64,000 bases of DNA from a bacterium BMS3Abin14 (lineage in GTDB: Bacteria > BMS3Abin14). The stretch covers positions 62,001 through 126,000 of the forward strand of contig BDTG01000010.1 of NCBI GenBank assembly GCA_002897695.1. Direction: 5' to 3'. A model generated the notes under the pieces. That model saw only the letters and a program-made list of their open reading frames with translations, made no database searches and was not told the origin of the DNA. Shown in pieces: positions 58,423 to 59,522 of this stretch; within the stretch, counting starts at the first letter, position 1; each line of letters begins with the position of its first letter. Both the position numbers and the translations under genes were made by a program.

Positions 58423-58854
58423 TCAAGAGTCGTATGGAGTAAAAGCCGTCAATCCATTCCTGATGAATTTTTTAATTTCCTTTATAACGCTCTCCCTGTA
58501 TTTCGGATTGCTCTTTGCGACTTCAATGGATGTCTGATAGAAAGATTCACTTGGAACATTTAACCATTTATTGTTCATCGCGAGAAATACTACGAGAGTT
58601 GTCAGAGCAATTCTTTTATTACCATTAAGAAATGGTTGGTTTTTTATCATAAGGTAGAAAAGCATCGCAGCCTTATCAATAAGAGTCGGGTAAAGGTCTT
58701 TGCCGCCGAAAGTTTGTAATACGGTTGCCAGACAACTTTCCAGTTTACCCGGGTAACGGGTCTCAAAGTCCGGTATCGGCTCATCCCACTCAAGATGTTT
58801 TCGAGCGAGAGTGTGAGCGATATGCTCGACCTCGCTTATCTTTATTGACCTCAT
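58423..58854 (-). CDS. Fic/Doc-family toxin with altered catalytic motif
   Basis: A 143-residue Fic-fold protein of the Doc (death-on-curing) type. The active loop reads KNQPFLNGNKRIALTT, while Doc/Fic enzymes have HxFx(D/E/N)GNKR. The catalytic His is Gln here. Fic proteins transfer AMP or phosphate to targets such as EF-Tu; loss of His usually abolishes this, so the protein may be inactive or have another activity. It overlaps the upstream DNA-binding partner gene by four bases, a toxin-antitoxin arrangement. Confidence 0.85.
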   Translation of the reverse strand: MRSIKISEVEHIAHTLARKHLEWDEPIPDFETRYPGKLESCLATVLQTFGGKDLYPTLIDKAAMLFYLMIKNQPFLNGNKRIALTTLVVFLAMNNKWLNVPSESFYQTSIEVAKSNPKYRESVIKEIKKFIRNGLTAFTPYDS

Positions 58855-59102
58855 TCTTTTCCAAGCCGCTTAAGAACATCTCCGTATTCCCGGACAGTTC
58901 TATTGACGGCTTTGTCTATTTTTGCCCTGGCTGCAGGAGTGATGTCCTGGTAAATATCTCCCAGATCCCGGCGGTCAATTACATAGTTGCGGCCAACCTT
59001 GGCCGCAACTATGTCTCCTTTTTTTATTTTCTTGAAAACGGCAACCCTGCTTATACCCATAATTCTGGCGGCCTCTGAAGTACCAATAAGGTTTTTCACC
59101 AT
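58851..59102 (-). CDS. excisionase-type DNA-binding antitoxin candidate
   Basis: An 83-residue protein with an N-terminal winged helix of the excisionase/MerR type (GTSEAARIMGISRVAVFKKIKKGDIVAAKVGRNYVIDRRDL) and a helical C-terminus (ARAKIDKAVNRTVREYGDVLKRLGKE) that could bind the Fic partner. Located directly upstream and co-translated. Upstream of its start are four palindromes at 29-base intervals, the likely autoregulatory operators. Called an antitoxin by context. Confidence 0.8.
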   Translation of the reverse strand: MVKNLIGTSEAARIMGISRVAVFKKIKKGDIVAAKVGRNYVIDRRDLGDIYQDITPAARAKIDKAVNRTVREYGDVLKRLGKE

Positions 59103-59165
59103 CGCGTCAACTCCTTGACCACAGGGACTGTAAAGCTTCCATAAACCATAACCAATTGATTCCAG

Positions 59166-59268
59166 ATTAACATAGGTTAACCACTCAGCGGATTGTTAAC
59201 AAATGCTAACTAACCCAAGTTTGATTAACCTATGTTAACCATCTGCCGTAACGTTAACATATGTTAAC
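59166..59268. promoter_or_regulatory. array of four 16-bp GTTAAC-type palindromes at 29-bp spacing
   Basis: Sites at 59166, 59195, 59224 and 59253, each 16 bases and variants of GTTAACATATGTTAAC (the last is perfect). Starts are exactly 29 bases apart. They lie 64-166 bases upstream of the antitoxin ATG. Probably operators or iterons for the excisionase-type protein. Confidence 0.8.
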
Positions 59269-59301
59269 TACACTGTAAACACCTTTCGTGCTCACTGTTG
59301 T

Positions 59302-59522
59302 CTGAAACAGCTGATTTCAGGTTCAGAAAATCGATTGCTACCGTTTAGAGATACAAAAGCAACTTTTTTAGTAGATTCAGTTGATGATTTCAGGGAATTC
59401 CTTCAGAAACAAGGTGCATCCATATTGGAAGAACCAAAATCTGTTCCAACCGGTAAAATATGAGAGTAAAGCATATAGATGGTTTGGTCGTTGAATATGT
59501 CGAACATTCACCCTCCCCTTAG
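59302..59522 (+). pseudogene. glyoxalase/VOC-family C-terminal fragment with frameshift
   Basis: The frame reads FRDTKATFLVDSVDDFREFLQ, then GASILEEPKSVPTGK before a stop near 59460. One base off, it continues MRVKHIDGLVVEYVEH, the end of VOC-superfamily dioxygenase/glyoxalase proteins (VPTGR.LxVxHPDGxxVEYVE). No start or N-terminal half is present. A dead fragment. Confidence 0.65.

Follow-up and report, generated by a model that had tools for sequence, protein, structure and literature searches.

The four phased palindromes at positions 59166 to 59268 of the window (the whole 64-kb stretch of DNA that was analysed) probably form the autoregulatory operator of an HTH_17-Doc toxin-antitoxin operon, which the antitoxin would bind cooperatively, as a chain. 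This reading is the best one because the array is conserved, overlaps a likely promoter and accompanies a partner protein that resembles Xis and BldC. The sequence-only reading of this DNA had suggested cooperative binding and tight repression by the partner of the toxin. The conserved phased array, the promoter overlap and the Xis/BldC-like partner favour that suggestion, but the array is not a set of four independent sites, as its half-sites follow steps of 10 and 18/19 bp. The device is of a familiar kind, a toxin-antitoxin operator, and its geometry is unusual. The features of the locus are as follows.

58423..58854, minus strand: Fic/Doc gene, proposed toxin, 143 aa; Fic / DOC_P1 above cut-offs; ATGA overlap with the antitoxin gene
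58851..59102, minus strand: HTH_17 gene, proposed antitoxin and repressor, 83 aa; Pfam HTH_17 above cut-off; winged-HTH model
59166..59181, no strand: palindrome 1, nearest the antitoxin gene; kept in the same-genus genome G001
59195..59210, no strand: palindrome 2, one half degenerate (GCTAAC on the + strand); kept in G001
59224..59239, no strand: palindrome 3; kept in G001
59251..59256, minus strand: proposed -10 hexamer TAACGT with TGT before it (extended -10), inside palindrome 4
59253..59268, no strand: palindrome 4, perfect, one half overlapping the proposed -10 box; kept in G001
59274..59279, minus strand: proposed -35 hexamer TTTACA, 17 bp from the -10; identical in G001

The palindrome array and its relatives

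The array features four GTTAAC-N4-GTTAAC-type palindromes that start at window positions 59166, 59195, 59224 and 59253, with a start-to-start distance of 29 bp three times and spacers of 13 bp. Palindrome 2 (59195) is the weakest of the four sites and palindrome 4 (59253) is a perfect palindrome. A pattern search of the 64-kb window that allowed up to two mismatches and counted both strands returned 10 matches, 8 of them from the four sites; 1.4 matches are expected by chance, and 10 were reached in 0 of 100 shuffles. The coordinates and exact spacing first reported for the array are confirmed by these results. At a threshold of at least 10 of the 12 half-site letters, only the four array sites are found within the 64 kb, and elsewhere in the 2.28-Mb genome (up to two mismatches) there is one further cluster, on contig C5, along with scattered single matches. 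The array ends 63 bp upstream of the 83-aa antitoxin gene on the minus strand. Its placement upstream of a Fic-type toxin module also stands, with overlapping ORFs that match HTH_17 and Fic / DOC_P1 above the cut-offs.

Related modules, which the sequence-only reading had proposed to search for the same motif and period, were drawn from a genome-contig scan (2 loci), from a search of 386 genomes and from further searches in the phyla to which seven members belong. The 386-genome search yielded 8 members of full length (E below 1e-50), one of them that of the window, as well as two partial members (G131, G228); the seven phylum sets have no genome in common. The 17 modules analysed are those with a placeable antitoxin start, 15 in genomes of seven phyla and 2 from named MAGs. 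Toxin matches left out of the 17 are L043, which has another partner gene, L049, and L078, a fragment in which no antitoxin and no phased half-sites were found. At L049:1443-1530 (G131), half-sites at 19-10-19 bp stand directly before a toxin remnant, and the antitoxin and the toxin start are gone.

Half-site cores (GTTAA or TTAAC) were sought up to 200 bp upstream of the antitoxin gene, and over only 68 bp in the case of L077. Half-sites lie at 10, 18/19 and 28/29 bp in 16 of the 17 modules, with 26, 28 and 39 pairs observed at these distances in the 16; across 1000 dinucleotide shuffles the mean numbers of pairs are 0.08, 0.15 and 0.12 and the maxima are 3, 2 and 2. The 17th module, L038, features a GTTAC/GTAAC-like half-site three times, exactly 28 bp apart (2636, 2664 and 2692, by eye), and the HTH region and wing of its antitoxin are unlike those of the others, a single case that suggests covariation between half-site and recognition helix. 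No pair at the array distances was found in 491 control segments elsewhere in the same loci, and these segments together with the shuffles rule out chance or AT-richness as the origin of the array. Additionally, the array was rejected as a general trait of Doc loci, as no phased half-sites were found at 25 other Fic/Doc loci; this control was taken without L011 and L034, and in many of its members the Fic domain belongs to a longer protein, with the 700 bp scanned perhaps partly coding. Absence of the array from homologous modules, set beforehand as the refuting outcome, is not what the relatives show. The comparison supports the array as a conserved part of the putative toxin-antitoxin cassette.

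Genome G001, of the same genus, encodes both proteins with identities of 92% (antitoxin) and 86% (toxin). The block that can be aligned runs from window position 58442 to 59285 (845 bp, 85.6% identity) and the flanks do not align; the block stops 17 bp past the array, which makes the two genes and the array a shared cassette. The G001 array has four sites at 29-bp spacing with no indel. Site letters are identical at 57 of 64 positions and spacer letters at 20 of 39 (Fisher p = 3e-5), which indicates that the sites and their spacing are held while the spacers drift. A 42-aa frame at window 59335-59463 (+), just outside the cassette, has no Pfam match and looks like a truncated gene remnant.

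Half-site geometry and the proposed promoter

A 10-bp step and an 18/19-bp step together make up the 28-29 bp period. There are four palindromes in the window and G001, three in L073 and L075, and three with a degenerate outer half in L048 and L076, while L037, L039, L045, L046, L072 and L077 each feature a single full palindrome flanked on both sides by a lone half-site (steps of 18-10-18, one of the 18s being a 19 in some). Array ends are without a 10-bp partner in 18 of 32 cases and without an 18/19-bp partner in 14 of 32. Because the ends can lack either partner, both contacts seem to matter, and a dimer confined to either the 10-bp or the 18/19-bp pair was rejected, as neither pair is clearly the sole unit.

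An A follows the left half-site in 25 of 33 cases and a T precedes the right half-site in 27 of 39, a T that a TG before the -10 box would also favour. For lone half-sites, which were typed by distance alone, A follows the left ones in 6/7 and T precedes the right ones in 13/13. Because the flanking bases give the half-site orientation, the 10-bp steps are read as convergent and the 18/19-bp steps as divergent. The 10-bp step itself is present and the flanking bases point to inverted half-sites, with some doubt left by the self-complementary core as to direct repeats.

The array overlaps a likely promoter. TTGACA matches were counted at every offset before the right half-sites, and with a 17-bp spacer to TAAC-N-N, 10 of 16 modules, among them that of the window, reach five or more of the six letters; a higher score is reached only at the trivial offset of the neighbouring half-site. 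In these 10 modules a right half-site would thus serve as the extended -10 box as well. The promoter arrangement of the window is the same in G001 and recurs, with a TTGACA-like -35, in 8 further modules. No -35 of at least five letters is found at 17 bp in 6 of the 16 modules (L039, L047, L050, L072, L074 and L077); L072 has 4/6 letters, L050 has 4/6 with a spacer of 18 bp, and in L077 the available stretch is too short for a decision. L038 features TTGTAA-17-TATGAT. A general consensus scan for promoters and terminators did not list the proposed window promoter because TAACGT matches only 3 of the 6 letters of TATAAT, and the case for this likely promoter rests on the preceding TG and on the repeated 17-bp spacing. 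The transcript is predicted to begin near 59244 on the minus strand, and the remaining sites would fall in a leader estimated at about 140 nt in the window.

The encoded proteins and modes of binding

Two small overlapping genes, the antitoxin first and then a Doc-family toxin, are found in the same order in all 17 modules analysed. The toxin profile was compared with solved structures, and the sole match below 0.01 is 9vzc, a death-on-curing protein (E 1e-10). From sequence, the locus is assigned as a putative type II toxin-antitoxin operon with a Doc-family toxin, for which we infer toxicity and neutralisation. The window toxin features the motif NQPFLNGNKR, with a Q where the other 8 of 8 aligned members have H (HPFxNGNKR), and the catalytic motif H-x-F-x-x-x-N-K-R is not intact. 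Because Q replaces the motif H, the window copy of Doc is perhaps inactive and the family still fits; the Q may also be an assembly error. At L047:1501-1914 (G160) there is a stop within the motif region of the toxin frame and no good -35 at the operator, and this module is possibly decaying. Owing to the His to Gln change in the window and the stop in the L047 toxin frame, it is not certain that toxin activity maintains the array.

The antitoxin matches Pfam HTH_17 with 31 bits (cut-off 27). Phd is absent from its Pfam matches, and NCBIfam doc_partner reaches 17 bits, below the cut-off of 55.9; a Phd/YefM or AbrB-type antitoxin was rejected, as HTH_17 was matched instead and Phd was not. The AlphaFold2 model of the antitoxin (three sequences) features a winged HTH and a C-terminal helix at residues 56-79, with a moderate mean pLDDT of 74.9. 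Foldseek returned no match below E 0.001 for this model (best E 0.05), and among the highest entries of its list are RdfS, BldC, RacA and Pukovnik Xis. VIA-align ranks BldC best (Z 8.1, rmsd 1.9, 53 residues), followed by Pukovnik Xis (Z 7.6), lambda Xis (6.8) and RdfS (6.7). The sole match below 0.01 of the antitoxin profile to solved structures is 4j2n (E 0.0047), which is Pukovnik Xis according to the Foldseek listing. With moderate confidence, the antitoxin is predicted to adopt a Xis/BldC-type winged-helix fold of the HTH_17 family, in agreement with its first description as an excisionase-type protein. The C-terminal motif E-Y-G-x-x-L-x-x-L-G is invariant in 11 members and would fit a toxin-binding segment. 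Within the antitoxin gene, window 58981-59014 contains a perfect 16-bp inverted repeat and then a T run on the + strand; by eye, this repeat is not perfect in G001.

In the mechanism that we infer, the antitoxin would be the binder, and its protomers would occupy oriented half-sites (about RGTTAACA) in alternating orientation. Neighbouring protomers would be 10 bp apart (convergent) or 18 or 19 bp apart (divergent), giving the 28-29 bp period, and contacts across both steps would join the neighbours into a short chain of this small protein. Because one half-site is the extended -10 box, the chain would cover the core promoter, and it would mostly extend into the leader. With enough antitoxin the chain would close and transcription of antitoxin and toxin would be turned sharply off; upon loss of the antitoxin the chain would fall apart and the operon would restart. 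A fuller version of the proposal stands somewhat short of an even chance: an undescribed HTH_17-Doc family in at least seven phyla, with an antitoxin that polymerises via alternating 10-bp convergent and 18/19-bp divergent interfaces into an open chain of inverted protomers, the extended -10 box being one link. If true, such a chain would differ from the head-to-tail filaments of BldC and Xis and from the two-dimer Phd operators.

A possible though decidedly minority reading is conditional cooperativity bridged by Doc, where one antitoxin dimer would sit on each 16-bp palindrome and Doc would bridge the 18/19-bp gap, so that the spacing would be dictated by the toxin, in the manner of P1 Phd-Doc. 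This model is a variant of the best explanation and not its opposite. The available text of PMC4803016 describes Doc joining Phd dimers on two adjacent sites, and both the Doc-family partner in an overlapping operon in 17/17 modules and the invariant antitoxin C-terminus, as a candidate toxin-binding segment, are consistent with such a bridge. However, lone half-sites at 18/32 array ends are odd for dimers on whole palindromes, and the E. faecalis Phd-Doc complex does not bind DNA, according to the part of PMC13034048 that was available.

A head-to-tail filament of the BldC/Xis type, which would read the GTTAAC units as direct repeats, extend along the DNA and fill the 18/19-bp gap non-specifically, is unlikely. 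The fold likeness to BldC/Xis argues for it, GTTAAC is its own reverse complement and a direct reading is possible, and the 10-bp step resembles the 9-11 bp steps given for BldC and Apl in the accessible parts of PMC5859096 and PMC7498355. Repeats at a 10-bp lag also precede another HTH_17 gene of the same genome. Nevertheless, the mirrored bases beside the lone half-sites fit inverted protomers, with a T bias that is perhaps partly due to the extended -10. The second HTH_17 gene (L035:2580-2888, G000:C5:5579-5887) encodes 74 aa and is preceded, at a distance of about 39 bp, by five half-sites spaced exactly 10 bp from one another, among them GTTAAC, GCTAAC and GTTAGC; these repeats look like a BldC/Xis-type direct-repeat operator. 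Relatives of this gene in G010 and G001 (L080, L081) have other sequences, which are repeated at a lag of 10 or 20 bp.

It is very improbable that the palindromes act as hairpins of the leader transcript. The leader of the window does fold better than its shuffled versions (z -3.9, or z -2.2 for 133 nt) and z is negative in 17/17 leaders (-0.9 to -5.1), but any set of palindromes folds, the G001 leader folds weakly (z -0.9) and no Rfam match was found. Moreover, in modules such as L037, L044, L045 and L046 the -10 box coincides with the first half-site, which is hence untranscribed. Palindromes 1 and 3 (window 59166-59239) have complementary centres, ATAG and CTAT, which are paired as a long hairpin in the predicted leader RNA; by eye, this pairing has no consistent counterpart in relatives.

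The iteron-like device of the sequence-only reading, or a partition or recombination site, is the least credible, phased repeats and an excisionase-type protein being set against a chromosomal locus that adjoins uvrA (154-kb contig), a search of 72,556 plasmid records at E 1e-5 that gave no match to the antitoxin of G001, and arrays that precede the same operon in all relatives, across several phyla. A plasmid iteron beside a replication initiator was rejected, as the array is neighboured by the HTH_17-Doc operon and by two genes identified by eye, uvrA and a frame for an AarF-like kinase. When plasmids and phages were searched with the toxin of G001, only Docs below 60% identity were returned, and the viral-contig scan gave no match.

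Comparison with known systems

An HTH_17-Doc pair or such an array was not found in the literature searched, mostly outside subscription journals, and the HTH_17-Doc toxin-antitoxin family is apparently undescribed so far. The 17 natural operators, with 3 to 8 half-sites, are a series for asking how a tiny winged-HTH antitoxin represses cooperatively. They bear on whether the toxin sets the spacing and on whether Xis/BldC-like proteins bind inverted as well as direct repeats, and they give an operator signature with which a Doc partner family can be searched for.

The comparisons below draw on the parts of the cited papers that were available. Phd-Doc of P1 and E. faecalis resembles the present module in its Doc-family toxin, its small antitoxin gene in first position and its palindromes at the promoter (PMC13034048, PMC4803016); P1 Phd-Doc has two adjacent palindromes and E. 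faecalis Phd has one (PMC13034048). In contrast, the antitoxin here is a predicted winged HTH (HTH_17) and not Phd or AbrB-like, and up to four palindromes at 28-29 bp result as steps of 10 bp alternate with steps of 18/19 bp.

BldC, Xis, RdfS and Apl share with the antitoxin the predicted fold, the small size and sites one helical turn apart, and the known cases assemble cooperatively (PMC5859096, PMC11963761, PMC7498355). BldC (PMC5859096) and phage 186 Apl (PMC7498355) bind direct repeats about one turn apart, cooperatively. These systems feature direct repeats and head-to-tail protomers, whereas the half-sites here look inverted and include a second step of 18/19 bp, and the protein adds a C-terminal helix and a toxin partner. 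Makarova et al. 2009 described truncated-MerR predicted antitoxins with PIN toxins (PMC2701414), which are similar in using a MerR-like HTH as a predicted antitoxin; they differ in their PIN partner and in an extra domain that is N-terminal. The Fic/Doc partners given in the available portion of that paper are AbrB, Xre, YhfG and PHD (PMC2701414).

The earlier remark that one or two sites are usual in a toxin-antitoxin operator is fair, but arrays of repeats are known as well. YefM relies on a pair of palindromes separated by 12 bp and is sensitive to their spacing, and omega assembles on contiguous heptad arrays (PMC4803016); because of these cases, multi-site operators are not new. YefM-YoeB and omega-epsilon-zeta are toxin-antitoxin loci that resemble the present one in their spacing-sensitive palindromes (YefM) and their repressor on repeat arrays (omega), but their DNA-binding folds are unrelated and their spacing is 12 bp or contiguous heptads (PMC4803016), as opposed to alternating steps of 10 and 18/19 bp.
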